Below, one piece after another: positions 10,168-32,330 of a stretch of 64,000 nt of DNA. The stretch is taken from assembly GCF_036127095.1 (NCBI RefSeq), contig NZ_CP108006.1, forward strand, positions 8,237,501 to 8,301,500. Reading direction: 5' to 3'. Each line of letters opens with the position of its first letter. Position 1 is the first letter of the stretch. The notes under the pieces are model-generated. The model did not search any database and was not told where the DNA came from. It was given only the letters and a program-made list of their open reading frames with translations. This DNA is from Streptomyces sp. NBC_00335 (lineage in GTDB: Bacteria > Actinomycetota > Actinomycetes > Streptomycetales > Streptomycetaceae). The translations under genes and the position numbers were made by a program.

Positions 10168-10172
10168 GCCGG

Positions 10173-12884: not shown

Positions 12885-12915
12885 GTCGAACTCTCCCCCG
12901 AATAGATTGACGAAA

Positions 12916-12946
12916 AGTAGCTTAGCGGTAAGTGGCTTAGCGTCAA
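12916..12946 (-). promoter_or_regulatory. Tandem operator-like repeats and -35 box upstream of the MFS gene
   Basis: AGTAGCTTAGCG (12916-12927) and AGTGGCTTAGCG (12931-12942) repeat with a 15-bp period. Each holds a small dyad (AAGTAGCTT; TAAGTGGCTTA). On the minus strand TTGACG (12946-12941) is a good -35, so the repeats lie across the spacer and -10 of the MFS promoter. No MarR or ArsR regulator is adjacent. Confidence 0.5.
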
Positions 12947-12974
12947 GAGGTATTCGCGGGTCGCGCAGGGAGGT

Positions 12975-13613
12975 CTACCGACCTTCCTGTGCGGGGTCCT
13001 GCCCGCCGAGGTTCCACGCCTCGATGTCGCGGTAGTGGATCGGTCCCGGGCCGCGGCCGATGTTGCTGCCGACCAGGTGCAAACGCTCCGTCCGCCAGCG
13101 GCGGCCCGTGAACCCGCCGAGTCCGGCGGCGGCCTCCACGGCCGAGGAGGCGTCGTTCCGGCGGGCGCGGGCCAGCGTCAGATGGGGGCGCAGCGGCCGG
13201 TCTTCGAAGGGGATGCCGCAGTCCTTGACCACGGCGCGCACCTCGGCGGCGAGCCGGTGCAGCCCGTCGAGGTCCCCGTCGATCCCGCTCCACAGCACCC
13301 GCTCGGCGAAGTGGCCGCCCCCGCGCAGGGTCAGGCGTACGGGACTGCGCGCCGCCGCGAGCTCCGCGAGCGGCGGCCGCAGGAGGGGGACGACCTCGAC
13401 CGGAAGTTCACCGAGGAACGCCAGGGTGATGTGCCAGTCCTCGATGCGGTTCCACCGCATGTGCGGGTACGCGGCGTAGGCCGGCCCCAGCTCGCGCGCG
13501 AGTTCCTCCTTCGCGTCGTCGGGCGGGGCGAGGGCGATGAACACGCGAACGGTCGCGGGCCGGGCCTGCTCGGTCACGGCGTCCAGGGCGTCCACGGCAT
13601 CCACATCGTTCAC
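12975..13613 (-). CDS. thpR: RNA 2',3'-cyclic phosphodiesterase (2H family)
   Basis: A 212-aa protein with the two HxTx motifs of the 2H phosphoesterase fold, HITLAF (about residue 62) and HLTLAR (about residue 145). It also has the conserved FIALAPPDDAKEEL start and LVGSNIGRGPGPIHY end of ThpR. These enzymes open 2',3'-cyclic phosphate RNA ends. GTG 13613 is the longest start, with no ribosome site; an internal GTG just before VRVFIALAPP would give the usual family length. Codons 3-11 are a small repeated Val-Asp-Ala stretch. Confidence 0.88.
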   Translation of the reverse strand: MNDVDAVDALDAVTEQARPATVRVFIALAPPDDAKEELARELGPAYAAYPHMRWNRIEDWHITLAFLGELPVEVVPLLRPPLAELAAARSPVRLTLRGGGHFAERVLWSGIDGDLDGLHRLAAEVRAVVKDCGIPFEDRPLRPHLTLARARRNDASSAVEAAAGLGGFTGRRWRTERLHLVGSNIGRGPGPIHYRDIEAWNLGGQDPAQEGR

Positions 13614-13634
13614 AGGAGACTTTGTACAGTGCTT

Positions 13635-13670
13635 CGGGCGGTCCGGGCGGTCCGGGCGGTCCGGGCGTTC
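13635..13670. repeat. 9-bp tandem repeat, four units
   Basis: CGGGCGGTC repeats at 13635, 13644 and 13653, with a fourth CGGGCGTTC at 13662, in the 64-bp gap between the isochorismatase and thpR genes. Slippage-prone; it could change in length between strains. Confidence 0.7.
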
Positions 13671-13677
13671 ATCGCGG

Positions 13678-14178
13678 TCAGGTGTAGTCCGCCGTGATGT
13701 GCACGTCGCCGAAGCGGGGGAAGATCCGCTCCACGGTGAACTCGTGCTCGTCGGCGGCGAAACCGGACATGGCGTCGGCGACGAACTCCAGCTCGTAGCC
13801 GTGGTCGCTCGCGGCCCGCGCCGTGGACTCGACCCCCATCGTGGTGACCAGTCCGCCGAGCACCAGCGTGTCCACGCCCAGGGCGCGCAACCGGTCGTCC
13901 AGGCCGGTGCCGTGGAAGGCCCCCACGGTCTGCTTGACGATCAGAACGTCGCCCGGCTGCACCAGCCCGTCGGCGAAGCCGCTGCCCGGCGGCTGCTCCG
14001 CGACCCCCGGCCGGTCCACTCGGACGAGCACCACCGGGCGCCCGTCCGCCCTGAAGGCCTCGGCCAGCCGGAGGCAGCGGGACAGCACCTCTTCACCGGA
14101 GTGAGGGGCGACCGGCAGGTCGATGATGCGGGGCATCAGGTCGATGAGGATCAGCGCGGAGGTCACGGGAACGATCAT
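13678..14178 (-). CDS. Isochorismatase-family hydrolase lacking the catalytic cysteine
   Basis: A 166-aa protein of the isochorismatase-like fold: ALILIDLM with the catalytic Asp, IVKQTVGAF with the catalytic Lys, and GLVTTMGVESTARAA where cysteine hydrolases read GVxTxxCVxST. The Cys is Gly, as in the EntB/PhzD ether-hydrolysing branch rather than nicotinamidases or other amidohydrolases. It lies 41 bp downstream of the DJ-1/AraC regulator on the same strand, a common pairing. ATG 14178 has only a weak ribosome site; a GTG four codons later is possible. Confidence 0.83.
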   Translation of the reverse strand: MIVPVTSALILIDLMPRIIDLPVAPHSGEEVLSRCLRLAEAFRADGRPVVLVRVDRPGVAEQPPGSGFADGLVQPGDVLIVKQTVGAFHGTGLDDRLRALGVDTLVLGGLVTTMGVESTARAASDHGYELEFVADAMSGFAADEHEFTVERIFPRFGDVHITADYT

Positions 14179-14219
14179 AGGACAGGGAGGTCTCGGCGCC
14201 GGGGGCCCGGCGCCAGGCC

Positions 14220-15176
14220 CTACGGCGTGCTCGTGAAGGAGCGGCGGTAGGCCCGGGGCGGAACTCCCCTGCGCCGCACGAACTGTTCCCGCAGGACCGC
14301 CGCACTGCCGTAGCCCACCCGGCGGGCGATCTCCTCGACGGGCAGGTCCGTGCTCTCCAGCAGCTCCTCGGCGCTGCTGAGCCGCAGGTTCCGCAGCCAG
14401 GCGTGCGGGGTGGTGCCGGTCGCGGCGGTGAAGCGGCGGGCGAAGGAACGCTTGCTCATCACGGCGCGGCGGGCCAGTTCCGTGACGGGAAGCGGCTCGT
14501 GGAGGTGGTCGCGGGCCCAGGCGAGCACCTCGGAGAGCCGCTCGTCCCGGCAGTCCTCGGGGACCGGCGCCGCGAGGTACTGGGCCTGCCCGCCGTCGCG
14601 GTGCGAGGGCAGCACGATGTCCCGGGCGACGGCGTTGGCCATCGCGGCCCCGTGCTCCCGCCTCAGCAGGTGCAGGCACAGGTCGAAGCCGGCGGCGGCG
14701 CCCGCGCCCGTGACGATCCGGCCTTCGTCGATGTACAGGGCGTCCGGTTCCACGGCCACGTGCGGATGCCGGTCGGCCAGCAGTTCGGCGAACCGCCAGT
14801 GCGTGGTGGCCCGCAGCCCGTCGAGCAGTCCGGCCTCGGCGAGCGCGAACGTGCCCACGCAGTGGGCCGCGAGCAGGGCGCCGCCCCCGTGCGCGGCCAC
14901 CAGCGCGTCCAGTACCGCCGGGCCGGGCGGCGTACGGAAACCGGCCCCCGGCAGGGCGATCACCAGATCGGCGGCCGCCAGCCGGTCGAGGCCGTGCTCG
15001 ATCGCGAGCGGCACGCCGAAGTCGGTGGGAACCGGCCCGGGCCGCTCGGCGCACAGGACGAAGTCGAAGCCGGGCACCCCCTGCCCGTGCGGGCCGAAGA
15101 CCTCGGTGACGATCCCGACGGCGAGCATGCCGACACCGGGCGGGACGTACGCGGCGACGGTCTTGAAAGGGGGCAC
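14220..15176 (-). CDS. GlxA-family regulator (DJ-1/PfpI domain plus AraC HTH)
   Basis: A 318-aa protein. The N-terminal ~180 residues are a DJ-1/PfpI-like domain with LLAAHCVGTFALAEAG, the conserved nucleophile-elbow Cys. The C-terminal ~100 residues hold two AraC helix-turn-helix units (LARRAVMSKRSFARRF and VEEIARRVGYGSAAVLREQF). The family often controls an adjacent hydrolase, here the isochorismatase-like gene downstream, and perhaps the divergent metallo-beta-lactamase gene 102 bp away. GTG 15176 is the start. Ligand unknown. Confidence 0.92.
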   Translation of the reverse strand: MPPFKTVAAYVPPGVGMLAVGIVTEVFGPHGQGVPGFDFVLCAERPGPVPTDFGVPLAIEHGLDRLAAADLVIALPGAGFRTPPGPAVLDALVAAHGGGALLAAHCVGTFALAEAGLLDGLRATTHWRFAELLADRHPHVAVEPDALYIDEGRIVTGAGAAAGFDLCLHLLRREHGAAMANAVARDIVLPSHRDGGQAQYLAAPVPEDCRDERLSEVLAWARDHLHEPLPVTELARRAVMSKRSFARRFTAATGTTPHAWLRNLRLSSAEELLESTDLPVEEIARRVGYGSAAVLREQFVRRRGVPPRAYRRSFTSTP

Positions 15177-15278
15177 GGGGGCAGTCTGCCACCGTGCTGA
15201 TCATCGTGGCACGAATCCTGCGATCACTGGCAGGTGTGCCACTCGTGCGTCCCCCGCCGCCGCGGAAGGATTGCAGCC

Positions 15279-15947
15279 ATGACGAACACGACGAAGAACT
15301 CCACGGCGAAGAACTCCACGGCGAAGAACGACACGGTCACCGCGCAGGACCTCCCCGCCGACGCACCGCTCGGCCGCAGCGCCGTCTACAAGGTCCTCAC
15401 CACCGGCTACGTCGGCTCCACCGGCCCCGGAGTCGCCGCCACCGTCTCCTACGTGTCCGACGCCGGCCGGCACTTCATCTTCGACCCGGGCATGGTGGCG
15501 AGCCACGCGGACATCCTCGGTCCGCTCGCGGAACTGGGCCTGGGCCCCGAGGACATCACCGACGTGGTGCTCAGCCACCACCACCCGGACAACACCATGA
15601 ACGTGGGCCTGTTCGGCCGGGCCCGGGTGCACGACCACAAGGTGGAGTACCAGGGCGACCAGTGGACGAACCGGGACGCCGAGGGCTACGAACTCACCCC
15701 CTCCCTGCGCCTGATCCGTACGCCGGGGCACAGCCACGAGGACATCACGCTGCTGGCCGGAACGGAATCGGGCGTGGTGGCCTTCGCCGGCGACCTGTGG
15801 TGGCACGAGCAGGGCCCCGCCGACGACCCGGTCGCCCCGGACCGCGAGGTACTGGGCGCCTCCCGGCTGCGGGTGCTCGCCGCGGCGGACCTGATAGTGC
15901 CCGGCCACGGAGGCCCGTTCGCCGCCGGCGCCGCCGTGCCGCTCTAA
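15279..15947 (+). CDS. Metallo-beta-lactamase-fold hydrolase (MBLAC1-like)
   Basis: A 222-aa protein. The metal motif reads SHHHPDN (about residue 108), so the final His of HxHxDH is Asn. Later ligands are intact: TPGHSHED (His), FAGDLWW (Asp) and VPGHGG (His). GGAAGGA lies 8 nt before ATG 15279. The N-terminus contains a 15-bp tandem repeat encoding KNSTA units. The fold covers hydrolases of many thioesters, lactones and nucleic acids; the size and PGHSHEDI segment resemble MBLAC1-type proteins. Divergent from the DJ-1/AraC regulator. Confidence 0.83.
   Translation: MTNTTKNSTAKNSTAKNDTVTAQDLPADAPLGRSAVYKVLTTGYVGSTGPGVAATVSYVSDAGRHFIFDPGMVASHADILGPLAELGLGPEDITDVVLSHHHPDNTMNVGLFGRARVHDHKVEYQGDQWTNRDAEGYELTPSLRLIRTPGHSHEDITLLAGTESGVVAFAGDLWWHEQGPADDPVAPDREVLGASRLRVLAAADLIVPGHGGPFAAGAAVPL
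15293..15337 (+). repeat. In-frame 15-bp tandem repeat, three units
   Basis: GAAGAACTCCACGGC occurs at 15293 and 15308, and a diverged unit follows at 15323, inside the N-terminus of the MBL-fold gene. Whole-codon units keep the frame. Confidence 0.75.
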
Positions 15948-18731: not shown

Positions 18732-21700
18732 TCAGGGAGCGAGGAGGTAGGCGTTCGTGATCGTCTCCTGCACCGTGTTGCCGGCCTTGTCCCTGAGGTA
18801 CACCTGGAACGACGCGGCCTTGGCCGAGGCCGGGTGCTGCACGGTCACCGACCGCGCGCCCTGCGCGTCCGTCGCCACCGCGAGGAAGCTCCAGGTCGTA
18901 CCCCCGTCGTAGGAGACCCGGACCGTCAGTACGGCGACCTGCCCCTGCGCGGCGGCCGCGCCCGCCAGCACCAGCGGAACCTTCAGCGCACCGCCCGCCG
19001 GCGCGGTACCGCGCAGGCTCAGCTTCGGCGCGAGCCGCACCGTGGACAGCGGCAGCTTCACCGACTGGTCCGTGGCCGGGCGGGCCGAGGTGAACGTCCA
19101 GCTCGCCCGTACCTTCGTGCTGGTGGCGGTGTCCTCGGCGGACCGGGTCGCCTCCTTGGTCAGGCGGTACACGGCGGATCCGGCCGGGACCTCGGCGCTG
19201 ATCCAGCCGTGGGGATCGGTCTCCGCGAGGACCTTGCCGCCGGACTCCAGCCGGGTGAAGCCCCCGGTGGAGATGGACGAGCCCTCGTGACCGGCGCCGT
19301 CGTGGAACAACCCGACGTTGGCGTCCAGGTAGTCCCCGGTCCGCCACGCTCCCTGCTCCTCCCCGGCCTTCAGGTCGGGGCCGATCACGCCGGTGTTGAA
19401 GTTCAGCGCGTAGCGCTTGCCGGGCTGGTAGGACACCTGGTTCTGCGAGTAGATCATGCGTGCCTCGCCCCGGGAGTCGACCTGCGAAGCGACCCAGCTC
19501 CAGCGCACCCCGGCGGTGCTGACGTACTGCGTGCTCGCCAGCGGCAGGCTCATCTCGGACGGGTCCGTGATGCCGGAGGTGTAGCCGTCGTCACCGGTCG
19601 GCGTCGCGTGGATCAGACCCTTCACGCCGGTGACCGAAGCGCCGAAGCCGAGCTTCACCTCGGCGACGTCCGCCGGGGTGAGCTTGCGGTCGAGCCCGTC
19701 GAACCAGGTGCCCTTGCGGTTGAAGGCCAGCCGGTAGTCGACGTTCTTGCCCGCCGCCCCCGGCGTCTTCCACAGGCCGTTGTATTGCGCCCGCAGGGTG
19801 GTCGCGGCCGGGCCCAGGTGCTGGGTGAGGATCCGGGTGGTGCCGTCGGTGGCCCACATGTCGGACACGCCCGCGGCCTCGTCGTAGAACCCCGCGTACC
19901 CGCTCACCAGCTTCGCCGACGGATCCGGCGGGGTGACGGCGAACGGCTTGGCCTTGCGGGAGTCGAAGGTGACCGTGGCCCTTCCGGTGACCTTCAGGAC
20001 CGGCTGGACGAAGAAGCCCAGGGTGGAGTCCGGGCCCCAGACGACGCCCTCCAGCAGGTAGTCGCCCTTGGGCAGCCGCTGGACGACGGTGCCGCTCGGG
20101 TCGTACGGGACCTCGAAGCGGCCCTCCATGCCCGTGCCGAGCTTGGTGACCGTGGTGTAGTACGTCGACGGGTTCGCGCCGTTGACGTCCAGGTGCTTCA
20201 GGGTGACGTCGTAGGACTCCACCTCACGCTCGACCACGAGGCCGGTGCGCACTTCCTGCCCGCCCCCCGAGGCCAGCACGGTGCCGCCGAAGGCCCCGTC
20301 CACGGAGCCCTTGCGGGTGTCGGCGGTGACGGTGGTCGTCGCGGTGCCCCCGGCGGGGACGGTCAGCTGGGCGTCCTTGACGGTGAACATCCCGGCCGGG
20401 GCCGGGCGGCCGGACTGGTCGGTGCCGGACGTGCTCAGCTTGAGCGTGACGGGCCGGGTGCCGTGGTTGCGGTAGATGAGGGACCTGGTCGCCGGCTTGT
20501 CGTCGGCGTGCGGCCAGGAGTGCGTGCCGAAGGCGAGGGAGCCGGGCGCGGCGGCGACGACCGCCTTGACGGCCCGTGCCAGGTCGGTGCGGCCCGCGCC
20601 CTGCTGGTAGGCGTTGAGCGCCGGGTTGGGCCGGGCCGAGCCCGTCAGCAGGGCCTTGATCATGGCCGGGCTCCAGTCCGGGTGCTGCTGACGGACCAGA
20701 GCCGCGGCGCCCGCGACGTGCGGGGTGGCCATGGAGGTGCCCGACATGCTGACGTAGCCGTCGGCGGGCCCGGGATCCGGGCTCTGCGTGGTGTGGGCGG
20801 CGGTGATCTCCACGCCCGGGGCGGTGATGTCCGGCTTGAGCGCTCCGTCGGCGCTCGGGCCCCGGCTGGAGAACTCCGCGAGCTGGTCCTGCTTGTCCAC
20901 CGCGCCGACCGTGAGCGCCGCGCGGGCGCTGCCGGGCGTGCGCAGCGTGCCGGACCCGGGACCCTCGTTGCCCGCGGCGACCACGAACAGGGCCTTGCCG
21001 GAAAGCTGGGCGACCGCCTCCTCCATGGGGTCGACGCCGGGCTCGTCGGGGGAGCCCAGACTCATGTTCACCACGGTCGCACCCTGGTCCACGGCCCACT
21101 GCATGCCGCTGATGATGCCGGAGGAGTCGCCGAAGCCGTCGTCGCCCAAGACCTTGGCGTCCAGGAGCTGCACGCCGGGCGCCACACCCTTGTACCGGCC
21201 GCCGGACCGCGCGCCCGTCCCGGCGATCGTGGAGGCCACGTGCGTGCCGTGCCCGTACCGGTCCGCGGAATCGGGCGAGCTGCTGAAGTTCCGCTGAGTC
21301 GTCTCCACCCCCTTGAGGTCGGGGTGGGTCTCGTCGACCCCCGTGTCCAGGACGGCCACCTTGACGCCCTTGCCGGTGTAGCCCGCCTGCCACATGGCGG
21401 GCGCGCCTATCTGCGGCACGCTCTTGTCCAGGGCCGCGCTCACCTTGGCGTCCAGCCACAGGTGGGCGACGGGCGGCACCGGGGCGGCGCCCGCCACGCG
21501 GGCGTTCGTCCGGCCGGTGACCGCCGCCCACAGGGCCGCGGCGTCGGACTTCGACGCGTTGAACGCCTCGCCCGCCACCGCGGGCAGCGGGCGGCGCTCG
21601 CGCGCGACCGCGGCGAGCGTGTCTCCCGAGGCACCGAAGGTCTGGGCCCCGGAGGCGTCCCGCCGGTAGCCGGCGATCAGCGGCAGCGTGCTGCGGCGCG

Positions 21701-22079
21701 CGTCGTCGTACCCGTCCTTGACCAGCAGCGCCACGTCGAACAGCCGCCGGTCCAGTACCCCGTCGGCGACCAGGCGCAGCGCGTCCTGCGGAACGACGTA
21801 CGTGTGCGCGCCCTCGCGCCGCACCGAGAAGGCCGTCCCCTCACGGCCCGCGCCCCGAACGAGCCGCTCGACGCTGCCGTCGCCCTTGACGACGACCCGG
21901 TCGCCGGTGATCAGGGTCACCGTCGCCGACGGCTTCGCGTCCGCCTTCGGCCTGCCCTTTGCCGAAACCCCCGTACCGTCCGGCGCCGGCTGAGCGCCGG
22001 CCGGTACGGTCCCCGCGATCAGTGCCCCGGTCACCGCCGCGGCGAATGCCGCCGTCCTGGCTCCCCTTGCGAATCCCAC
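18732..22079 (-). CDS. Secreted S8-family serine peptidase (subtilase), 1115 aa
   Basis: GTG 22079 follows GGGGGA and starts a signal peptide (AAAVTGALIAGTVPAGAQ). An inhibitor-type propeptide of roughly 170-190 residues precedes the S8 domain. The triad is VLDTGVD (Asp, about 244), GHGTHVAS (His, about 280) and GTSMATPHVAG (Ser, about 447). Some 650 residues of beta-rich domains follow, with no sorting signal, so the enzyme is probably released. This layout matches the large multidomain Streptomyces subtilases. The gene stands alone, convergent with the galactose-oxidase-like gene. Confidence 0.93.
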   Translation of the reverse strand: MGFARGARTAAFAAAVTGALIAGTVPAGAQPAPDGTGVSAKGRPKADAKPSATVTLITGDRVVVKGDGSVERLVRGAGREGTAFSVRREGAHTYVVPQDALRLVADGVLDRRLFDVALLVKDGYDDARRSTLPLIAGYRRDASGAQTFGASGDTLAAVARERRPLPAVAGEAFNASKSDAAALWAAVTGRTNARVAGAAPVPPVAHLWLDAKVSAALDKSVPQIGAPAMWQAGYTGKGVKVAVLDTGVDETHPDLKGVETTQRNFSSSPDSADRYGHGTHVASTIAGTGARSGGRYKGVAPGVQLLDAKVLGDDGFGDSSGIISGMQWAVDQGATVVNMSLGSPDEPGVDPMEEAVAQLSGKALFVVAAGNEGPGSGTLRTPGSARAALTVGAVDKQDQLAEFSSRGPSADGALKPDITAPGVEITAAHTTQSPDPGPADGYVSMSGTSMATPHVAGAAALVRQQHPDWSPAMIKALLTGSARPNPALNAYQQGAGRTDLARAVKAVVAAAPGSLAFGTHSWPHADDKPATRSLIYRNHGTRPVTLKLSTSGTDQSGRPAPAGMFTVKDAQLTVPAGGTATTTVTADTRKGSVDGAFGGTVLASGGGQEVRTGLVVEREVESYDVTLKHLDVNGANPSTYYTTVTKLGTGMEGRFEVPYDPSGTVVQRLPKGDYLLEGVVWGPDSTLGFFVQPVLKVTGRATVTFDSRKAKPFAVTPPDPSAKLVSGYAGFYDEAAGVSDMWATDGTTRILTQHLGPAATTLRAQYNGLWKTPGAAGKNVDYRLAFNRKGTWFDGLDRKLTPADVAEVKLGFGASVTGVKGLIHATPTGDDGYTSGITDPSEMSLPLASTQYVSTAGVRWSWVASQVDSRGEARMIYSQNQVSYQPGKRYALNFNTGVIGPDLKAGEEQGAWRTGDYLDANVGLFHDGAGHEGSSISTGGFTRLESGGKVLAETDPHGWISAEVPAGSAVYRLTKEATRSAEDTATSTKVRASWTFTSARPATDQSVKLPLSTVRLAPKLSLRGTAPAGGALKVPLVLAGAAAAQGQVAVLTVRVSYDGGTTWSFLAVATDAQGARSVTVQHPASAKAASFQVYLRDKAGNTVQETITNAYLLAP

Positions 22080-22202: not shown

Positions 22203-23540
22203 TCACCAGGCGACGGGGAGCTCCCGCAACCCGTAGACGATGGTGTCCCGTTGGAACACGAGCTGCTCCTCGGGTACGGCCAGCCGCAGACCGGGCAGCT
22301 CGCGCAGCACGGTCTCCAGCATGATCTGGAGCTCGACGCGTGCCAGGGTGTGGCCCAGGCACTGGTGCGGACCGTGGCCGAAGGCCACGTGCCGGCGAGC
22401 GTCCCGGGTCACGTCCAGCTCGGCGGGACACGAGTGGTCGCCGTCCCGGGCGTCCGGGACGTCCGTGGCCTGGAGGGCGCCGAAGAGCTCCGGCTGCCGG
22501 TTGGCGGTGGACAGCATGCAGATCACCCCGTCCCCGGCCCGGACCGCCGCTCCGCCGACCGTGACGTCCTCGGTGGCGGCGCGGCCGAGGCCGAGGTGGA
22601 TGATCGTGAGGTAGCGCAGCAGTTCCTCCACCGCCCCCGGGATCAGGGCCGGTTCGGCCCGCAGCCGGGCGGCCTGCCCGGGGCGGCGCAACAGGGCCAG
22701 GACGCTGAGCGCCGCCATGTTGGTGGTGCTCTCGTGGCCGGTGATCAGGAGCATGAAGCCGAGCGAGGCCGTTTCCCGCGCGGTCAGGTCGGGCCGGACG
22801 GCGAGCCGGCTGAGGATGTCGTCCCCGGGATCCTGCCGCTTCCGCTCGGCCAGCCCGGCCAGGTAGCCCATCAGCTCGCGGTGGGCCTCGGCGGCCCGTC
22901 CGGGGTCGGTGGTGTTGTCGAGCAAGGTCCGGCTGAGCGACTGGAACAGCGCGTGGTCCTCGTACGGGACCCCCAGCATCAGGCAGATGACGAGGGACGG
23001 GACGGGCAGCGCGAAGTCCGCGACGAGGTCGGCGGTCCGGCGGCCGTCGGCGGTCATCGCCTCGACGGCGGCCTCGACCACGTCCGTGATGGCCGGGCGC
23101 AGTTCCTGGACCCGGCGGGTCAGGAAGTCCTTGGCGACCATCCTGCGCAGCCGGGAGTGCTCCGGGTCGTCCATCCGGATGAAGCTCGGCTGAGCGGTGG
23201 CCAGTTGGCGCTGGCCGGGGGACAGGAAGGGGAAGCCGGGGGCGCGCGCGTCGGCGCTGAAGCGGGCATCGGCGAGGACCGCCCGGACCTCCTGGTGGCC
23301 CGTCACGAGCCAGCAGGGGGTGCCGTCGGGCAGCTCGGCGCGGCTGACCGGAGCCTCGGCCGCGGCCTGCGTGTAACCGGGCGGCGGGTCGTAGGGGCAG
23401 GAGCCGTACGGGGCGGGCAGGGCGAGCGGGGCCGCGGCCGGACCTCCGGTGGCAGGGTCGGCGGAGGCGGAGGCGAAGGTGGAGGCGGTGGCGGAGGTGG
23501 CGGTAGGCGTAGCGGTGACGGTCATGGTGGCGGATCTCAT
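22203..23540 (-). CDS. Cytochrome P450 ending a fatty-acyl biosynthetic operon
   Basis: A 445-aa soluble bacterial class I P450. The I-helix motif is ITGHESTTN, the K-helix ExxR is in EELLRYL, and the heme-ligand loop is FGHGPHQCLGHTL with the axial Cys. An N-terminal Thr/Ala-rich extension precedes the usual start. ATG 23540 overlaps the stop codon of the upstream gene by 4 bp (ATGA), indicating translational coupling. As the last gene after ACP and ketosynthases, it may oxidise an acyl-ACP, free acid or a product derived from it. No ferredoxin or reductase is adjacent. Confidence 0.93.
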   Translation of the reverse strand: MRSATMTVTATPTATSATASTFASASADPATGGPAAAPLALPAPYGSCPYDPPPGYTQAAAEAPVSRAELPDGTPCWLVTGHQEVRAVLADARFSADARAPGFPFLSPGQRQLATAQPSFIRMDDPEHSRLRRMVAKDFLTRRVQELRPAITDVVEAAVEAMTADGRRTADLVADFALPVPSLVICLMLGVPYEDHALFQSLSRTLLDNTTDPGRAAEAHRELMGYLAGLAERKRQDPGDDILSRLAVRPDLTARETASLGFMLLITGHESTTNMAALSVLALLRRPGQAARLRAEPALIPGAVEELLRYLTIIHLGLGRAATEDVTVGGAAVRAGDGVICMLSTANRQPELFGALQATDVPDARDGDHSCPAELDVTRDARRHVAFGHGPHQCLGHTLARVELQIMLETVLRELPGLRLAVPEEQLVFQRDTIVYGLRELPVAW

Positions 23541-24103
23541 CCGGAGGGGGTTCGGCCGCCGTCGGGCGGGGTGTGGAGGGCGCCGAGCGTGGCGCACATG
23601 GTGGCGCACTGCCCGGCGAGGATCAGCAGTTCGATCAGTTGGTCGGGGCGGAGTCCGCCCGCCAGCCGGTCCCACAGCGGCTGCGGCAGCGGCTCACCGG
23701 CCGCGAGCGCGTCGGAAGCTTCCAGCAGGGCCAGATCGGCCCCGGACCAGGGGTGTTCGGCAAGGGGTGAGGCGGTCGCCGCCACCTCCCGGGAGTCCAG
23801 TCCGGCGTCGGCGGCGACCGCGCTGTGACGGTCGAAGACGAAGGACCCGCCGCGCCGGTGCGCGGTGCGCAGGACGACCAACTCCCGCTGACGGCTCGTC
23901 AAAGTCCCTTCGTGGGTCAGGACCCGGGCGAGGGAGAGCCAGGCGTGCGCGAGTCCGGGATGGTGGGCGAGGGTGCCGAAGAGGTTCACCCGGCCGGGGC
24001 CGTCCTTGGCGGATCCGGCCAGCAGCCCGCGCAGCGCGGGCGTCCACTGCTCGGGCGGCAGCGGAGTGATGCGTACGGGGCGCTCGGGTGGTTCGGTGGT
24101 CAT
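23537..24103 (-). CDS. Carboxymuconolactone decarboxylase/AhpD-fold protein
   Basis: A 188-aa protein with the CMD-fold core: LTHEGTLTSRQRELVVLR, then FVFDRHSAVAADAGL and a C-terminal DQLIELLILAGQCATM helix. The CxxC peroxidase pair of AhpD is absent, so thiol peroxidase activity is unlikely. Related CMD proteins in biosynthetic clusters have been linked to decarboxylation or dehydration, but no such activity can be read here. ATG 24103 lies 5 bp after the stop of the KASIII-like gene and its own stop overlaps the P450 start. Confidence 0.82.
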   Translation of the reverse strand: MTTEPPERPVRITPLPPEQWTPALRGLLAGSAKDGPGRVNLFGTLAHHPGLAHAWLSLARVLTHEGTLTSRQRELVVLRTAHRRGGSFVFDRHSAVAADAGLDSREVAATASPLAEHPWSGADLALLEASDALAAGEPLPQPLWDRLAGGLRPDQLIELLILAGQCATMCATLGALHTPPDGGRTPSG

Positions 24104-24108
24104 CGGGC

Positions 24109-25104
24109 TCACCACCTGCAGACGACGACGCCGGCGCTGGCCCCGCTCGCGAACCCGAACATGCCCACCAGATCGCCCGGGTGGAGCCGGTCCGACCGCA
24201 GGGCGGTGGCCAGTTGCAGCGGGATGGTGTTGGTGGCGACGTTGCCATGCGCGGGGAAGGTGGACAGGATCCGCGAAGGATCCACTCCCACCCAGCCGCA
24301 CGCCACCCGGGTGAAGGGCACGGACGGCTGGTGCACGCAGACGAGGTCGAAGTCCTCGACGTCCACGCCGAGTTCGCGCACCGCCCCGCGCACCTTGGCC
24401 GGCATTCCGTCGAAGGAGGCGACGAGTCGCGCCGAGTCGATCTCCAGGCGGCCCATCCTGCGGTGGTTCGCGTACGGATTGGGCAGTGTCGCCGCCTGCC
24501 AGCCCCAGGAGTTGGCGAAGAACCGGCTCCCGAGGATCCCGGGCCGCGTGCTCGCGGCGACCAGTACCGCCGAGCCCATGTCGCCGGTGCTCAGGCTCGG
24601 CAGGGCGCCGAGCAACTCGTCCGGGTCGGTGACGTTCCAGCGGCTCTCCCGGGTGCTGACCTCGGCGCTGGTGATCAGCACCCGCCGGTACTGTCCGGTC
24701 CGGACGAAGGCGTCGGCCACCTCCAGTGCGTTCAGCACGCCGTTGCAGGCGTTCTTCAGGTCGAACACTGGGCAGTCCAGGCCGAGTTTGGCGGCCACCA
24801 CATGGGCGGTGGCCGGTTCCTCCATATCGGCGAGGATGCCCGCGTACAGCAGCAGGTCCACCTTCCGGGCGGGGGTGCCGCTCTCCTCCAGCAGACTGCG
24901 GGCGGCGTGCACCGCCAGGTCGGAGGGCTGCTCCTCGGGCGGGGCCACCGTGCGCTGCTCCAGCCCGTACATGTGCCGGAGCACGCCCCGGGACATCGGG
25001 ATGCCGGGGCTGCCCGCCCGGAAGCGGTCCTCGACCGCGGCGACGCTCTGGCGCTCCTGCGGTACGTGGACGGTGGCGTGGACGACGGCACTGTGAACGG
25101 CCAA
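24109..25104 (-). CDS. Divergent KASIII-like ketosynthase/acyltransferase
   Basis: A 331-aa thiolase-fold protein. The KASIII triad is present as KNACNGVL (Cys, about 118), CVHQPS (His) and HGNVATNT (Asn), but the sequence around the Cys differs from housekeeping FabH (NAACSGF). Such divergent KASIII proteins in clusters can condense two acyl chains or transfer an acyl group to an amine or alcohol. TTG 25104 is the start, with AGAAGG 10 nt upstream. It follows the FabF-like gene by 37 bp. It is the second KASIII in this operon, so it is unlikely to be a simple initiator. Confidence 0.88.
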   Translation of the reverse strand: MAVHSAVVHATVHVPQERQSVAAVEDRFRAGSPGIPMSRGVLRHMYGLEQRTVAPPEEQPSDLAVHAARSLLEESGTPARKVDLLLYAGILADMEEPATAHVVAAKLGLDCPVFDLKNACNGVLNALEVADAFVRTGQYRRVLITSAEVSTRESRWNVTDPDELLGALPSLSTGDMGSAVLVAASTRPGILGSRFFANSWGWQAATLPNPYANHRRMGRLEIDSARLVASFDGMPAKVRGAVRELGVDVEDFDLVCVHQPSVPFTRVACGWVGVDPSRILSTFPAHGNVATNTIPLQLATALRSDRLHPGDLVGMFGFASGASAGVVVCRW

Positions 25105-25141
25105 GGGTACGAAGCCTTCTGCTGGTGGGGGACGGCGGCGG

Positions 25142-26392
25142 TCAGGGCGCGGTGAGGAGCAGCACCACGTTGTGCCCGCCGAAGCCGAAGGAATGGCTGA
25201 CGGCGGCGCCGACCCGCTGCTCCCGCGCGGTGCCGGTCACGCAGTCGATGTCGTAGGAAGAGCCCGAACCGGAGCCGGACGCGGCCAGGTTGGCGATCGG
25301 CGCCACCCGGGAGTCCCGGATGGTGAGCGCGGTCAGCGCGGCCTCCACGGCACCGGAGGCGCCGAGACTGTGGCCGAGCACCCCCTTGGGGGCGGTCACG
25401 GTGGGGCCGTGCGGCAGGACGCGGGCGATGAGTTCCGCCTCGGTGCGGTCGTTGAGCGGGGTGGAGGTCCCGTGGGCATTGACGTGGTCGACGTCGGCCG
25501 GGGACAGTCCGGCCTCGGCGAGCGCCGCCCGCAGGGCCGCCTCGGCGTACTCCCCGCCGGGGGAGGGAGCCGTCGGATGGTGTGCGTCCGAGGTGAGGCC
25601 GGCTCCGGCGAGGTGCGCGTAACCGCGCCGCCCGCGAGCCGCCGCGTCCGCCGGCCGCTCCAGTACGAGCACTGCGGCCCCCTCGGCGATGACGAACCCG
25701 TCCCGGTCCGCCGCGAACGGCCTGGAGGCCAGCGCCGGCTGGTCCACCCGCCCGGACAGGGCGCCCATCCGGGCGAACCCGGTGGTGACCACCGGGGTCA
25801 CGGCAGCCTCGGAGCCGCCGGCGATCGCGATGTCGCAGGCCCCGGAGAGCAGCAGGTCACGGGCGATGGCCAGGGCGGTGGCCCCGGAGGCACAGGCCGT
25901 CTCGGTGGCCAGGGAGGGGCCGTGGGCGCCGAGGTCGGCCGACACCTCGCCGGCGGCCATGTTGGGGATGAGCATCGGGATGAGGGAGGGGGAGACCAGG
26001 TCGGGTCCCCCCTGGTGGTGGCGCAGGGTCTGGGTCTCCAGATGGGGAGCCCCGGCCAGCCCCGAGCCGATCACCACGGCCACGCGGGCCCCGTCCCAGG
26101 TGGTGGGGTCGAGTCCCGCGTCGGCCACGGCCTCACGGGCCGCCAGGACCGCGAGCTGCGTGAAACGGCCCATCCGCCAGGCCTTGCCGCCGCCGATGCG
26201 GCCCTGTTCGGGGGTCATGGCGGGGATCCGGCAGGAGAAGTCGACCGGGCAGTCCTTGAGCTCGGGATCGGTGTCCGCCGTCGAGCGGCCCCGGAGCACC
26301 CCGGCCCAGGTGTCCTCACGGCCGATCCCGGCCGGAGTGATCAGCCCCAGGCCGGTGACGGCCACGGCGCGGGGGTGCGGGGAAGCCGTCAC
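25142..26392 (-). CDS. FabF-like beta-ketoacyl-ACP synthase (KASII)
   Basis: A 416-aa condensing enzyme with the Cys-His-His set: TACASGA (Cys, about 172), NAHGTST (His) and GHSLGASGA (His). AVTGLGLITPAGIG opens the protein. It elongates acyl-ACP by decarboxylative condensation with malonyl-ACP. No chain-length factor is next to it, unlike aromatic type II PKS. GTG 26392 overlaps the ACP stop codon by 4 bp, giving tight coupling with its carrier protein. The RedR of prodiginine pathways is a comparable dedicated KASII. Confidence 0.93.
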   Translation of the reverse strand: MTASPHPRAVAVTGLGLITPAGIGREDTWAGVLRGRSTADTDPELKDCPVDFSCRIPAMTPEQGRIGGGKAWRMGRFTQLAVLAAREAVADAGLDPTTWDGARVAVVIGSGLAGAPHLETQTLRHHQGGPDLVSPSLIPMLIPNMAAGEVSADLGAHGPSLATETACASGATALAIARDLLLSGACDIAIAGGSEAAVTPVVTTGFARMGALSGRVDQPALASRPFAADRDGFVIAEGAAVLVLERPADAAARGRRGYAHLAGAGLTSDAHHPTAPSPGGEYAEAALRAALAEAGLSPADVDHVNAHGTSTPLNDRTEAELIARVLPHGPTVTAPKGVLGHSLGASGAVEAALTALTIRDSRVAPIANLAASGSGSGSSYDIDCVTGTAREQRVGAAVSHSFGFGGHNVVLLLTAP

Positions 26393-26637
26393 AGGGCGTC
26401 CTGCTCGGTCCGCTTGGAGTGGAGCACGGCCACGAGCTCGCCGATGGTCGTGCGCTTGGCGGCCTCGTGCTCCTCGACCTTCACGCCGAGCTCTTCCTGG
26501 AGGGCGAGGGCCAGTTCGGCGAGGGCGAGCGAGTCGAGGTCGAGGCTCTCCAGGGTGGCGTCGGGCAGGACGCTCTCGGGGGAGACTTCGAACTTCTCGG
26601 TGAGCACGGTGGTGAGGATGGTCTGGAGCGGGGGCAT
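26389..26637 (-). CDS. Acyl carrier protein
   Basis: An 82-aa acidic helical protein with the phosphopantetheine motif LDLDSLALAEL (DSL Ser at about residue 36). It starts at ATG 26637 with AAGGA about 9 nt upstream. It is a second ACP, distinct from the housekeeping FAS ACP because it lies between dedicated ketosynthase genes and overlaps the FabF-like gene. It would carry the growing acyl chain for the cluster. Confidence 0.92.
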   Translation of the reverse strand: MPPLQTILTTVLTEKFEVSPESVLPDATLESLDLDSLALAELALALQEELGVKVEEHEAAKRTTIGELVAVLHSKRTEQDAL

Positions 26638-26834
26638 GGCGGGGTGTCCTTCCGGGACGGGTGATGAGGGGCGAGCAGGCATGGAGGGGCGGCCTGCAGG
26701 GGCGGCAAGGAGCCGGATCCGGGCCGGAGCCGAGGGCGAAGGGGGGCGGTGATCAGGGAGCGGCGGCCGCTTCTGCGCGGGTGTCGCGCACGCCGAAGGG
26801 GGCCCGGGAGCGCCCGGGAGTGAAGGAGCGGGCC

Positions 26835-27917
26835 TCAGGGCGCCGGGTCGATGCCGGGCACCGCGCGTTCGAGTCGTGGCCAGAGCACGGCAGCCGATCC
26901 CCAGGTGAGCCCGGCGCCGAAAGTGGTGAGCAACACGCGTTCCCCTGCGTGCAGTTCGCCGCGCGAGGCGGCATCGGCCAGGGCCAGCGGGATGGACGCG
27001 GCGCCGGTGTTGCCGACCCGCTCGATGTTGGTCACCCGACGCGGTCCGGGAACGGGCAGTCGCTCCCCGACGGCCTTCACGATGCGGGCGTTGGCCTGGT
27101 GGGCGCAGAACCGGTCCACGTCCTCGGGCGACCAGCCCGCGTGTTTCAGTACGGTCTGCGAGGACTGGGTCATCCGGGTCACCGCGTGCTGGAACACCTC
27201 GCGCCCCCGCATCCGGAAGTGCCGGTCGCCGGGACCGTAGGCGTCCGGGGCCGACCGCTCCCGTGCTCCGCCGCCGCGCACCTCGATCAGCTCGTCACCG
27301 GAGCCGTCGCTGCCGAGGTCGAAGGCGAGGATGCTGCCCGGTTCCCCGGAGCGGCCCCGGCGCAGGACGACGGCGCCCGCGCCGTCGCCGAAGACGATGC
27401 CGGCCGAGTGGTCCTCGGGGTCCAGCAGGGTCGAGTACAGGTCGGCCGCCACGAGCAGGACCCGGTCCGCGCAGCCGGACAGCAGGGCTCCGGCGGCGGT
27501 GGCGAGCCCGTACAGGAAGCCGCTGCAGGCGGCGTTCACGTCCCAGGCGGCCGCGCCGCCCAGGCCCAGACGGGTGGCGAGCTGCGGGGCCATGGCCGGC
27601 ATGGGCCGGTCCGGGGTGGAGGTGGCCACGAGCACGGTGTCCACCGGGGCGCCGCCCGCCACGGCCAGGGCGCGGCGCCCGGCTTCGAGGGCGAGCTCGC
27701 CGGTGGACACTCCGGGGTCGGCCCGGCGCCGCTCGCGGATTCCGGTGCGGCGGTGCACCCAGGCGTCGTCGATGCCCCATGCCGAGGGGAGTCCGGCGTT
27801 GGCGACCACCCGGGGCGGAACGTATCCGGCGATGCCTTCCAGCACCGCCGCGGGCGGGGCGGGCCGGGTGGCAGGGAGCGTCAACTGGTCTTCTGGGCAA
27901 GGCAGGAGGGAAGTCAC
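26835..27917 (-). CDS. FabH-like 3-oxoacyl-ACP synthase III
   Basis: A 360-aa protein with the complete KASIII triad: NAACSGF (Cys, about 140), CAHQANARI (His) and GNTGAASIPLAL (Asn). It matches the FabH consensus closely and should start chains by condensing acyl-CoA with malonyl-ACP. A ~25-residue N-terminal extension precedes the usual start; GTG 27917 has GAGAG upstream. It is the first gene of the operon. A 197-bp gap without an evident gene separates it from the ACP. RedP of prodiginine clusters is a functional analogue. Confidence 0.93.
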   Translation of the reverse strand: MTSLLPCPEDQLTLPATRPAPPAAVLEGIAGYVPPRVVANAGLPSAWGIDDAWVHRRTGIRERRRADPGVSTGELALEAGRRALAVAGGAPVDTVLVATSTPDRPMPAMAPQLATRLGLGGAAAWDVNAACSGFLYGLATAAGALLSGCADRVLLVAADLYSTLLDPEDHSAGIVFGDGAGAVVLRRGRSGEPGSILAFDLGSDGSGDELIEVRGGGARERSAPDAYGPGDRHFRMRGREVFQHAVTRMTQSSQTVLKHAGWSPEDVDRFCAHQANARIVKAVGERLPVPGPRRVTNIERVGNTGAASIPLALADAASRGELHAGERVLLTTFGAGLTWGSAAVLWPRLERAVPGIDPAP

Positions 27918-28375
27918 GCACGTCTCTCAGGAGGATCTCGGGGGAGCGGCACGACTGTAGGGCGGGTCAAGATCACGGCGGGCGCGGAGGCGCAGGGGAA
28001 CGGATGTGCTGAACGCCCGCTTCGGCGTCATCTCCGCAGCTCAGGGGCGTGAAGGAAGAAACGTTACGGCCGATGGGCCATCGGGGGATCGCCCCAAAGG
28101 TTGAATTAAGTGCGGCTGACCAGGCGTTCTGCTGACGCCGGGGGAGCAGCCGCCCTCGGGACCATCAACCGCCTTTACGGGCCGGGGGCAACGGTGCGGA
28201 ACGGGTGCCGCTGTTGAACGTGTTGCACACGCACCTCTCCCGGGCCGCTGCACGCTCCCTGGCACGAGACCGGGGAGGGCCGGGATGGCAGAGGAGGGCC
28301 TGGGCGGCCGGGGCGGGCCGGGGCGGGCCGGGAGAGGGAGCGGGCGTGATGGGCAGACCCGGGAGGGGGCGCCGG
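27918..28375. other. 458-bp intergenic region upstream of the KASIII-ACP operon
   Basis: No coding sequence is convincing here. It contains the perfect palindrome CCGATGG-G-CCATCGG (28070-28084), 153 bp upstream of the FabH-like start, and an AT-richer patch (28098-28112), both suited to the operon promoter/operator. A GC-only tandem repeat (GGGCGGGCCG units, 28302-28333) lies near the stop of the ABM gene. Confidence 0.5.
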
Positions 28376-28699
28376 TCAGTCGACCTGGAGCTCGCCCATC
28401 CGGCTCCATCCGGTCGCACCCTCGATGGTGGTGCTGACGATCTCCGGCGTCCGGGTGACCAGGGGACGCATGGTCTCCAGGGCCGCACGGAAGTGCGCGG
28501 AGGTCACGTGTGCCTCCGCGGCATCGTCCTGGAACGCCTCGACCAGTACGTAGGTGTCCGGCTCTTCGAGGCTGCGGGACCACTCGAACCACAGGTTGCC
28601 CGGCTCGGCGCGGGTGGCCCGAGTGAACTCCGCGACCAGCTCGGGCCACTGGTCGACGTACTCGGACTTGACGGGGAATTTCACCACAATGAAGATCAT
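28376..28699 (-). CDS. Antibiotic biosynthesis monooxygenase (ABM)-fold protein
   Basis: A 107-aa ferredoxin-like fold protein: IFIVVKFPVKSEYVDQWPEL at the start, then EWSRSLEEPDTYVLVEAFQD and SAHFRAAL, the typical ABM/YgiN order with a conserved His. Members are cofactor-free quinol oxidases or monooxygenases acting on aromatic polyketides. ATG 28699 has no ribosome site; TACAAT (28711-28706) ends 6 nt before it, so the mRNA is probably leaderless. It is on the same strand as the KASIII operon but 458 bp away, so membership is uncertain. Confidence 0.83.
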   Translation of the reverse strand: MIFIVVKFPVKSEYVDQWPELVAEFTRATRAEPGNLWFEWSRSLEEPDTYVLVEAFQDDAAEAHVTSAHFRAALETMRPLVTRTPEIVSTTIEGATGWSRMGELQVD

Positions 28700-30001: not shown

Positions 30002-30739
30002 TCAGCGGGCGTCCCCGCCGGCTCCGTCCAGGGGCACCACGAGTCCGATGGTCTCGGCCGCCACGGCGATGGCGTAGTCGAAGAACGCGGCCTCGTCCCG
30101 GACGCTGTCGTGGGTACGGCTGAAGACCTGGAACACCAGGAGTCCGATCAGGCTGCTCCACAGGACGATCCCGCGCTCGATGACGTCCGAGAACGGAGCC
30201 GGGGGCAGCCCGCCGAAGGCCTCCACGGCGGCCGGCAGCAGCAACGGCGGCCCGGGCACCGCGCGCCGGGGCGGGGTGAGTTCGCCGCCGGCCAGAGCCG
30301 CGCCCACGATGCCGGCGAGGACGCCGGGCGTGCGGGAGGCGGGCAGGACGGTGTCCTGCGGGGCGTGGTAGCCGGGTACGGGCGATCCGTAGATCAGCGT
30401 GAACTCGGCGGGGTGGTCGAAGGACCACTGGCGCAGTGCACGCGTGACGGCGAGCAGCCGCGCACCCGCCGACGCGCGGACCGCGGTGGCGGCCTCGTCG
30501 GCCCGCTCCATCGCGGCGCCGGACGCGTCGTAGGCATCGATCACCAGCGCGGTCAGCAGGTCGTCCCGGTGCGGGAAGAGGGCCCGCACCTCGGTGACGG
30601 CGCGATCGCAGTCGCGTGCGACGGAGTCGAGGGAGAGGCCTCCACCACCCAGCTCCGGCAGGTGCAGGCGCGCGGTCTTCTTGATCAGTTCTGACAGGAT
30701 CGTGTCGCCGGATGTCGAATTCTTTGCGTGATCGCCCAT
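30002..30739 (-). CDS. TetR-like regulator with WHG-type effector domain
   Basis: A 245-aa protein. The N-terminal ~60 residues fit a TetR-type HTH (LSLDSVARDCDRAVTEVRALFPHRDDLLTALV), though the recognition helix is less canonical. The C-terminal region has RQWSFDHPAEFTLIYGSPVPGY, the diagnostic stretch of the WHG/TetR_C_13 group. ATG 30739 lacks a ribosome site, and TACGGT sits 6 nt before it. It is divergent from the NCS1 permease (163-bp gap) and is its likely regulator. Confidence 0.8.
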   Translation of the reverse strand: MGDHAKNSTSGDTILSELIKKTARLHLPELGGGGLSLDSVARDCDRAVTEVRALFPHRDDLLTALVIDAYDASGAAMERADEAATAVRASAGARLLAVTRALRQWSFDHPAEFTLIYGSPVPGYHAPQDTVLPASRTPGVLAGIVGAALAGGELTPPRRAVPGPPLLLPAAVEAFGGLPPAPFSDVIERGIVLWSSLIGLLVFQVFSRTHDSVRDEAAFFDYAIAVAAETIGLVVPLDGAGGDAR

Positions 30740-30902
30740 GCCGAAACCGTACCGGTCGGCGGCAACTGCCTTGCGTGCGGCCTCCGTAGGGGATCCGCAG
30801 GGATCTGCCGGGATCCGGCCGAGGGGGCCCGACAGAACGCGACGCCCCACTGCGCTGATGTCGTCGTACGCGACTGCGCCCCGGGTGCGTGAAGATCCCT
30901 CC

Positions 30903-32330
30903 ATGGGATCCACGGACAGGGGCACGCACTCGGACACGGACACGGACACGGACACGGACCGGCCCGGCCGGGTCGAGGCCCACGGCATCGACCCCGTTCC
31001 CGACGGGGAGCGTCACGGCCGGGCCCGCGAGCTGTTCCCCGTCTGGGCGGCCGCGAACGTGAACTACCTGAGCATGGTGGTCGGCGGCGCCCTGATCCTC
31101 ATGGGCCTGAGCCTGGGTCAGGCCGTCGCGGTGATCGTGCTGGGCAGCCTGTTCTGGGCGCCGATCGGCCTGCTCGCCGTCTCCGGACCGGCCTCCGGCA
31201 CGCCGAGCGAGGTGATCGCGCGGGCCATGTACGGCATCCGCGGCAACCGGGTGAACATCGCCGTCAACGGCTGGCTGCTCTGCATCTGCTACATCGCCCT
31301 CAACCTGGCCGCCGCCTCGGTCGCCGCCTTCGTCCTCGTGGAGAAGGCGGGCATCGACACGAACAGCGGGGTCAAGACCGCCGTCGTGGTGGTCATCGCC
31401 GCCCTCACCCTGGCCATCGGCGTCTACGGACACGCCACCATGGTGAGGCTCTACCCCCCGATCGCGATCGCCCTCACGGTCACGTTCGCCGTCGTCGCCG
31501 GGTACGTGTGCGCCGGCGCCGACCTCGGCCGACAGCCCGCCGAACCACTGACCGGCACCGCCCTGTGGGCCACTCTCGCGGCGGGGCTCACACTCATTGC
31601 CTCGGGCCCGCTCTCGTACACCAACAGCGCCGACTTCTCCCGCTACCTGCCGCGCACGACCTCCCCGAAGGCGGTCGCGGGCTGGACCGCGCTCGGCGGA
31701 TTCCTGCCCGGAGTCCTCCTCACCTCGCTGGGCGCCCTCGCCGCCACCGTCGTGGACATGGCCGAACCGCAGGCCGGGCTGGAGAGCATCCTGCCCTCCT
31801 GGTTCTCGCCGGTCTTCCTGTTGGCGATCGTGCTCGGCACGATCGCCAACAACGCCATGACCGCCTACAGCTCCGGCCTCGCCCTCCAGGCCATGGGCGT
31901 CCGCGTCCGCCGCTCCGTCGGCGTCCTCGTCGACGGAGCACTCGGCGTCGTGGTGACCCTGTACGCGCTCCTGGTCTCCAACTTCCTCGACACGGTCGGC
32001 AACCTCCTCCAGCTGACCGTCGTCGTGCTGGGCCCCAGCACGGCCGTCTACGCGACCGACATCCTGCTGCGCCGCTGCCGCTACGACGGCCCCGCGCTCG
32101 CCGACGAGACCCCCGGCAGCCCCTTCTGGTACACCCGGGGCGTCAACTGGGCCGGAGCGCTGGCCCTGACGGCCGGCATCGCGGCGGCCGCCCTGTGCGT
32201 GGACACTCTGTACACGGGTCCCGTCGCCCGGGCCCTGGACGGCGTGGACCTCTCCCTGCCCGTCGGCATCGCCGTGGCGGCCTCCCTCTACGCGCTCCTG
32301 ATGCACCGCTCCCTGCGGGCCCCGGCCTAG
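30903..32330 (+). CDS. NCS1-family nucleobase/cytosine permease
   Basis: A 475-aa proton or sodium symporter with about 12 membrane segments. PVWAAANVNYLSMVVGGALI and the later SGPLSYTNSADFSRYLP segment match the cytosine-purine permease signature. The N-terminus contains a (GGACAC)4 repeat giving Asp-Thr alternation. The stop codon TAG is shared with the IS630 junction: TA is the target duplication and G is the first base of the element. The divergent TetR-like gene may control it. Substrate could be cytosine, purine, allantoin or related. Confidence 0.88.
   Translation: MGSTDRGTHSDTDTDTDTDRPGRVEAHGIDPVPDGERHGRARELFPVWAAANVNYLSMVVGGALILMGLSLGQAVAVIVLGSLFWAPIGLLAVSGPASGTPSEVIARAMYGIRGNRVNIAVNGWLLCICYIALNLAAASVAAFVLVEKAGIDTNSGVKTAVVVVIAALTLAIGVYGHATMVRLYPPIAIALTVTFAVVAGYVCAGADLGRQPAEPLTGTALWATLAAGLTLIASGPLSYTNSADFSRYLPRTTSPKAVAGWTALGGFLPGVLLTSLGALAATVVDMAEPQAGLESILPSWFSPVFLLAIVLGTIANNAMTAYSSGLALQAMGVRVRRSVGVLVDGALGVVVTLYALLVSNFLDTVGNLLQLTVVVLGPSTAVYATDILLRRCRYDGPALADETPGSPFWYTRGVNWAGALALTAGIAAAALCVDTLYTGPVARALDGVDLSLPVGIAVAASLYALLMHRSLRAPA
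30932..30955 (+). repeat. Hexanucleotide tandem repeat GGACAC x4 in the permease N-terminus
   Basis: Four GGACAC units, with a partial fifth, encode alternating Asp and Thr just before the first membrane segment. Six-base units preserve the frame, so length change would alter only the tail. Confidence 0.8.

Follow-up and report, generated by a model that had tools for sequence, protein, structure and literature searches.

A rare six-gene operon of Streptomyces sp. NBC_00335 predicted to build, couple, and oxidize acyl chains around an OleA-type condensing enzyme

The window analyzed here is a 64,000-nucleotide stretch of Streptomyces sp. NBC_00335 (GCF_036127095.1, contig NZ_CP108006.1; G000:C1:8237501-8301500), whose genome comprises 9.0 Mb in two contigs. 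On the minus strand it carries a compact array of six genes that encode, in reading order, a β-ketoacyl-ACP synthase III (KASIII), an acyl carrier protein (ACP), a β-ketoacyl-ACP synthase II (KASII), a second KASIII-like enzyme, a carboxymuconolactone decarboxylase (CMD)-fold protein, and a cytochrome P450. With a probability of roughly 0.55, these genes constitute an operon of specialized metabolism built around an OleA-type enzyme, in which the first three proteins would supply acyl-ACP, the fourth would couple two acyl chains head to head, and the CMD-fold protein and the P450 would tailor the product. The gene set and order, their conservation, the OleA-type residues, and a ferredoxin fusion in relatives were read directly from the sequences. 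According to an earlier, purely sequence-based annotation of this locus (hereafter the original prediction), the second KASIII could couple or transfer an acyl chain. Coupling may indeed be its function, but its Glu-Pro pair and its ole-linked relatives identify it by residues and neighbor context as an OleA-type enzyme with predicted catalysis, and the likely reaction can therefore be named as a non-decarboxylative head-to-head acyl coupling.

In an alignment with structures of the Protein Data Bank (PDB), Glu96 of the second KASIII pairs with the OleA glutamate located 26 positions N-terminal to the catalytic cysteine, i.e., Glu117; this spacing matches that from Glu117 to Cys143. The Cys-His-Asn triad, already described as intact in the original prediction, consists of C120, H258, and N288. 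As stated in PMC7064751, all but two of the OleA proteins in that study carry Glu117 followed by Pro, Glu117 is essential for condensation by the X. campestris OleA, and the mechanism is unique to OleA homologues among characterized proteins of the thiolase superfamily. The residues concerned are almost invariant in a first set of 113 rows (the window protein and those 112 of 120 listed homologues that are 300–400 aa long, eight having been dropped by length), with Glu and Cys found throughout (113 rows each), Pro in 112 rows, His in 111, and Asn in 110. In a second set, which has 73 rows (72 of them distinct) and includes X. campestris OleA, every row shows all five. Four KASIII controls, namely the first KASIII of the window and three paralogs from its own genome, possess the Pro and lack the Glu. 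A catalytic Glu at the same place is also found in PpyS/MxnB-like enzymes, which counts for a pyrone-type coupling whereby the second KASIII would join two β-keto chains, both of which could come from the ACP, to a pyrone that the P450 then hydroxylates. This seems improbable, as PDB entry 4v2p (named ‘ketosynthase’ and presumably MxnB) scores 38 bits vs. 97 bits for OleA, CorB (4yuc) is not in the best 60 of 71 PDB matches, and many relatives adjoin OleC/OleD-like genes.

The six genes form one unit that is rare, dispensable, under purifying selection, and decaying by deletion. Its rarity, dispensability, and selection follow from genome counts, remnants, and the ratios of non-synonymous to synonymous substitution rates (dN/dS). 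The OleA-type gene occurs with at least 70% identity in 8 of 392 same-genus genomes, its own included, and as a fragment in one more (G166). Among 384 same-genus genomes, CMD homologues of >50% identity are found in the same eight, and the first KASIII (at least 70% identity, E up to 1e-75) in these eight plus G320; co-occurrence of the P450 was observed in the loci retrieved. Across 394 genomes sampled class-wide, only the window's own contains an OleA-type match above 51%. Gene content up to about 10 kb from the OleA-type gene was compared for 15 loci from six lineages. The window and three close relatives make up the first lineage, a second Streptomyces group contributes seven loci, and S. 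antnestii, Streptomyces sp. HmicA12, Umezawaea tangerina, and the same-genus genome G283 contribute a single locus apiece. The families common to all six lineages are the P450, CMD, KASII, ACP, and KASIII enzymes (at the threshold applied, the two KASIII fall into a single family), and every other family is confined to at most two lineages. The original prediction had proposed that gene order be compared in other Streptomyces and that scattered occurrence in relatives would speak against it. A scan of genome contigs found the full order at 10 of 16 loci (L043 and L046 with apparent frameshifts), while five are cut by contig ends and consistent as far as covered and one (L047) is a deletion remnant; the OleA-type, CMD, and first KASIII genes, which were scanned genus-wide, have no scattered close copies save the remnants in G320 and G166. 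The array is more than a chance arrangement: only the six genes are common to the six lineages, and dN/dS lies between 0.08 and 0.48 (18 comparisons, three for each of the six genes).

Three different states of decay can be seen. In G320 (L152) the ACP is truncated and an internal deletion lies between ABM and S8 protease flanks shared with the window, with no KASIII-like, CMD, or P450 match left between them. At L149/L047 (G166, Streptomyces sp. H27-H5) a KASIII and an OleA-type remnant run together, and L043 (Streptomyces sp. AP-93) contains several apparent frameshifts. A plasmid location of the cluster was rejected: the window lies on an 8.7 Mb contig, and the best match to the OleA-type enzyme in a plasmid collection has 52% identity.

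RedP-RedQ-RedR of the prodiginine clusters are a dedicated KASIII, ACP, and KASII, and the original prediction likened the array to them. The same enzyme set is present here according to Pfam and NCBIfam, a KS/CLF-like pair of a type II polyketide synthase (PKS; L147) is encoded outside the window, about 47 kb away from the cluster (G000:C1:8213487-8215987), and other loci of the genus that have KASII or non-ribosomal peptide synthetase-type genes encode KASIII relatives of about 60% identity. A supply of acyl starters that the second KASIII would hand to a PKS elsewhere in the genome is nonetheless unlikely: the flanks of the six lineages (about 10 kb) share the six genes only and no PKS family, the cluster's surroundings showed no prodiginine gene, ole-type loci are among its nearest relatives, and the second KASIII has the Glu-Pro pair of OleA.

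A KASIII tree of 77 rows (76 distinct) was calculated without L043 (broken), L066 and L138 (contigs equal in length to those of L040 and L042), and L046, L047, L136, and L137 (no called gene). The OleA-type enzymes of six-gene loci form a clade of 18 rows (SH-aLRT 100) nested in a clade of 30 rows (SH-aLRT 100). Within 9 kb of the 11 distinct other rows of this larger clade, seven have OleC- and OleD-like genes, eight have KASII, and two have neither; two of the seven ole-linked rows share one stretch of genome G081. No OleB, OleC, or OleD homologue was found within 9 kb of any of the 18 six-gene rows; sequence extends for at least 7.5 kb in both directions in 12 of these rows, and the other six lie on contigs or stretches that are short on one side. 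The Ole neighbor labels rest on the genes of L051, whose OleC-like product scores 472 bits with the NCBIfam olefin beta-lactone synthetase model and whose OleD-like product scores 306 bits with the 2-alkyl-3-oxoalkanoate reductase model, both below the curated cut-offs. The KASII tree puts eight KASII of oleA-linked loci in the sister group of the cluster's own KASII (support 94, not starred). KASIII acyltransferases exist, and the weak PDB matches to CerJ (3s3l) and PqsC would fit C–O or C–N bond formation by CerJ- or PqsC-like acyl transfer, with the CMD–P450 pair preparing the acceptor. We consider this doubtful, as CerJ reaches 35 bits and PqsC 55–58 bits vs. 97 bits for OleA, and as the conserved Glu-Pro pair and the partly ole-linked clade point elsewhere. 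An ordinary β-lactone pathway with split genes, in which the OleC-like and OleD-like proteins encoded at locus L146 of the same genome act in trans, is very unlikely, because these genes sit in an OleA-containing locus of their own, are 26 and 33% identical to the OleC- and OleD-like proteins of L051, and had no counterpart in the searched surroundings of the 18 core rows (at least 7.5 kb on either side in 12 of them).

Several observations weigh against the proposed OleA-centered pathway. The PDB search scores the FabH-type entry 4ryb slightly higher (108 bits) than OleA (97 bits), and with the NCBIfam model PRK09258 the second KASIII reaches 137 bits, under the cut-off of 285. The KASIII tree places the family on OleA's side, but it contains four KASIII controls only, and X. 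campestris OleA forms a very long branch (2.76) between controls and family, so that clade membership is not settled by this tree. The KASII tree agrees only in part, since the KASII of six other oleA-linked loci (L055, L057, L058, L061, L107, and L140) are farther from the window's KASII than those of OleA-free loci (L154–L160). The best-known OleA case uses acyl-CoA substrates, not ACPs, and OleC and OleD could act in trans, given that the same genome holds another OleA-OleC-OleD-like locus (L146). In the assay of PMC7064751, only 25 proteins, about 35% of those screened, were active. Finally, the putative role of the CMD-fold protein is deduced from its fold, and the pathway is predicted from the gene sequences.

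The tailoring steps are best indicated by a protein fusion in relatives, which ties the CMD-fold protein to the P450. According to precomputed domains, 41 of the 67 closest CMD matches (P0121–P0187) have a C-terminal ferredoxin, the fusion standing just before the P450; five were rescanned and confirmed, and P0154, P0165, and P0170 are fused by the precomputed Pfam column though missed by the motif pattern. The fused ferredoxin has the motif CCSAGQC...CP, or in a few cases CCSSGQC (CxxSxxC form; L065, P0171, P0177, and P0182). PMC6237146 describes CxxAxxC...CP as common in [3Fe-4S] ferredoxins, a family linked to P450s. The domain is absent from the CMD proteins of the window's lineage, S. antnestii, and Umezawaea, and P0160 (S. 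fagopyri) and P0145 contain a degenerate ferredoxin stretch without the CCSAGQC part. Because the CMD tree has fused forms on deeper branches as well, loss of the ferredoxin in the window's lineage appears likelier than gain elsewhere, with weak tree support and a long Umezawaea branch. Three other ferredoxins encoded in the genome score above the Fer4_13 cut-off and could serve the P450. In the CMD-fold protein itself, E74, R79, H93, D131, and L147 are invariant among 42 aligned sequences, and its translation lacks CxxC as originally predicted. It matches the general Pfam CMD model; no NCBIfam family was hit at E up to 0.001, hence no PcaC match, and PDB matches were weak (best E 0.026). Among the matches listed from open PMC full text, no paper links CMD, ferredoxin, and P450.

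In the pathway that we propose, the first KASIII would prime malonyl-ACP, KASII would elongate the chain on the dedicated ACP, and enzymes of the housekeeping fatty acid synthase (FAS) would perform the reductions, as suggested by the enzyme families. That the reductive steps are borrowed from the housekeeping FAS was part of the original prediction, and is supported by the presence of a dedicated KASIII, ACP, and KASII besides a pair of adjacent KASII and KASIII genes (C1:5889832-5892461) that is taken as housekeeping and is 40 and 38% identical to the cluster enzymes. An origin of the genes as a simple duplicate of the housekeeping FAS was rejected, the paralogs being 38–44% identical (best paralog 42% for the first KASIII and 44% for KASII). 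One acyl chain would acylate Cys120, and Glu96 would take the α proton from a second acyl thioester; a non-decarboxylative Claisen condensation, which knowledge of the family suggests and the residues support, would then yield a 2-alkyl-3-keto product. The β-keto acid might be kept as such, lose CO2 to give a ketone, or cyclize. Since OleB, OleC, and OleD are not beside the cluster, a β-lactone or olefin fate is improbable, and the coupling product is probably not sent in this direction. The substrate of carboxymuconolactone decarboxylase is β-keto-like, and by analogy the CMD-fold protein probably acts on the β-keto product, our guess being decarboxylation or ring closure. The P450 would oxidize the product, fed by a ferredoxin that is fused to CMD in many relatives and would act in trans here; P450 oxidation as a step of a compact cryptic pathway, which had been predicted, is supported. 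The ACP as acyl donor, the role of CMD, and the product are likewise guesses. A more far-reaching and rather tentative possibility is that the cluster represents a new class of OleA pathway, in which type II acyl-ACP feeds the coupling and the CMD-ferredoxin fusion diverts the coupling product from β-lactone formation, both processing the β-keto acid and feeding electrons to the P450, leading to an undescribed family of oxidized ketones or oxygen heterocycles.

Gene calls and Pfam matches above the Pfam cut-offs for all six genes and the ABM gene bear out the six same-strand genes of the types named in the original prediction (Table 1). The spacings in reading order are 197, -4, 37, 5, and -4 bp, so the coordinates also agree with the predicted 4-bp overlaps of ACP with KASII and of CMD with P450. 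Active-site motifs read from the translations are ACSGF, HQANA, and GNTG in the first KASIII, TACASG, HGTST, and GHSLG in KASII, and the heme motif FGHGPHQCLG along with ITGHEST in the P450. The expected catalytic residues are present in both KASIII, KASII, ACP, and P450. In the PDB, the P450 matches 2z36 with 342 bits and 8swl and 4oqs (named CYP105) with 305 and 279 bits.

Table 1. Genes of the array and the adjacent ABM gene (positions in the window).
Feature	Position	Strand	Remarks
KASIII (FabH-type), likely priming enzyme	26835..27917	-	Alternative start 27845; Pfam ACP_syn_III N + C; NCBIfam PRK09352 342 bits, above cut-off
Acyl carrier protein, LDSL site	26389..26637	-	Pfam PP-binding 45.5 bits
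KASII (FabF-type), chain elongation	25142..26392	-	NCBIfam TIGR03150 403 bits (cut-off 494, below); PRK07314 388 bits (cut-off 387, above)
OleA-type condensing enzyme (second KASIII), catalysis predicted	24109..25104	-	TTG start; Glu96-Pro97, Cys120, His258, Asn288
CMD-fold protein without CxxC	23537..24103	-	Pfam CMD 36 bits; conserved E74, R79, H93
Cytochrome P450, nearest solved relatives CYP105 type	22203..23540	-	Pfam p450
ABM-domain protein, neighbor outside cluster	28376..28699	-	Pfam ABM

In line with the original prediction, none of the five scanned neighbors, i.e., the ABM gene, a DUF7847 gene, an S8 protease, a permease (30738-32330), and an open reading frame at 30002-30988 without NCBIfam match, is a ketoreductase, dehydratase, enoyl reductase, acyltransferase, thioesterase, chain-length factor, or pyrrole gene. 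The ABM-type monooxygenase noted upstream is a real gene that is not linked to the cluster. At 90% identity or more it occurs in eight genomes of a 199-genome sample (G000, G082, G172, G054, G038, G012, G042, and G039), only three of which (G000, G082, and G012) also carry the cluster; in the other five, the best OleA-type match is at most 34%. As near-identical copies exist in cluster-free genomes and the gene lies 4 Mb away from the cluster in G012, it was placed outside the cluster and rejected as a pathway enzyme. The long mycosin-like S8 protease (18732-21920; ~1062 aa by gene call) is located directly downstream of the cluster. The DUF7847 and S8 genes were rejected as members, since they stand beside the cluster in few of the loci checked (DUF7847 in L043, L063, and the remnant L152; S8 in L043 and L152).

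Further loci with related enzymes came to light. Locus L146 (G000:C1:1776000-1795900) encodes, within positions 8367-15419, an OleA-type enzyme, a family 2 glycosyltransferase, an OleC-like and a BrkB-like protein, one further protein, a weak P450 match (22.1 bits vs. a cut-off of 22.8), and an OleD-like protein. One stretch of G081:C1 (L049/L124) has two OleA-type genes with OleC-like, OleD-like, ABC1-kinase, KASIII, two ACP, KASII, and AurF-type N-oxygenase genes, possibly an unusual β-lactone cluster. A recurrent same-genus locus (L154, L156, L158, L159, and L160) combines KASIII with two KASII, and in four cases also with an ACP-like gene and a gene of 673–684 aa, which in L159, the only locus where it was scanned, is acyl-CoA oxidase-like; we know of no product for this locus type. 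In L127 and L128 (also L060, L062, and L067), long ketosynthase-containing, PKS-like genes stand beside OleA-OleB-OleC-OleD-like genes, and in L127 and L128 a KASII about 65% identical to that of the window comes after the ole-like genes. L146 resembles the A. atraurantiacus-type cluster described in PMC7064751.

The array places predicted OleA-type chemistry in a setting without oleB, oleC, and oleD, which is likely to escape surveys that choose by adjacent ole genes. The predicted joining enzyme belongs to a known type, but its partner genes, as a set, matched no described pathway in the literature searched, so that the cluster would be a new variation on the OleA pathways. A cassette of six genes is small enough for transfer as a whole into a laboratory host, and the CMD-ferredoxin fusion beside a P450 offers a handle on the role of CMD-fold proteins without CxxC.

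The claim that no described pathway has exactly this set holds insofar as no characterized match was found, and among the matches listed from open PMC full text, as judged by title and the start of the abstract, no paper deals with the six genes. In contrast to RedP-RedQ-RedR, KASIII, ACP, and KASII are here followed by an OleA-type enzyme, with no pyrrole or prodiginine genes among the neighbors scanned. Six same-genus loci (L048, L049, L051, L052, L054, and L106) likewise combine an OleA-type enzyme (48–52% identity) with ACP and KASII (64–70% identity), and to our knowledge no product of such loci has been characterized. Unlike the array, they include OleC/D-like genes (L049, L051, L052, and L054) and have a KASIII in L049 only, and no CMD or P450 homologue was labeled within 9 kb of them. 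The fused domain of the relatives resembles the P450-serving [3Fe-4S] ferredoxins of PMC6237146 in its mostly CxxAxxC...CP motif and its position next to a P450, but many relatives have it joined to a CMD-fold protein, and this strain lacks it. The purified OleA proteins of PMC7064751 derive from three contexts (oleABCD, oleBC fusion, and oleACD), all with C and D, and the six-gene set fits none of these three. With OleA of the oleABCD and oleACD pathways, known from X. campestris olefins and lipstatin-type β-lactones, the second KASIII shares Cys-His-Asn and the Glu-Pro general base, and several of its relatives at about 50% identity adjoin OleB/C/D-like genes; unlike these pathways, the cluster lacks adjacent oleB, oleC, and oleD and instead adds a KASIII, an ACP, a KASII, a CMD-fold protein with or without ferredoxin, and a P450.

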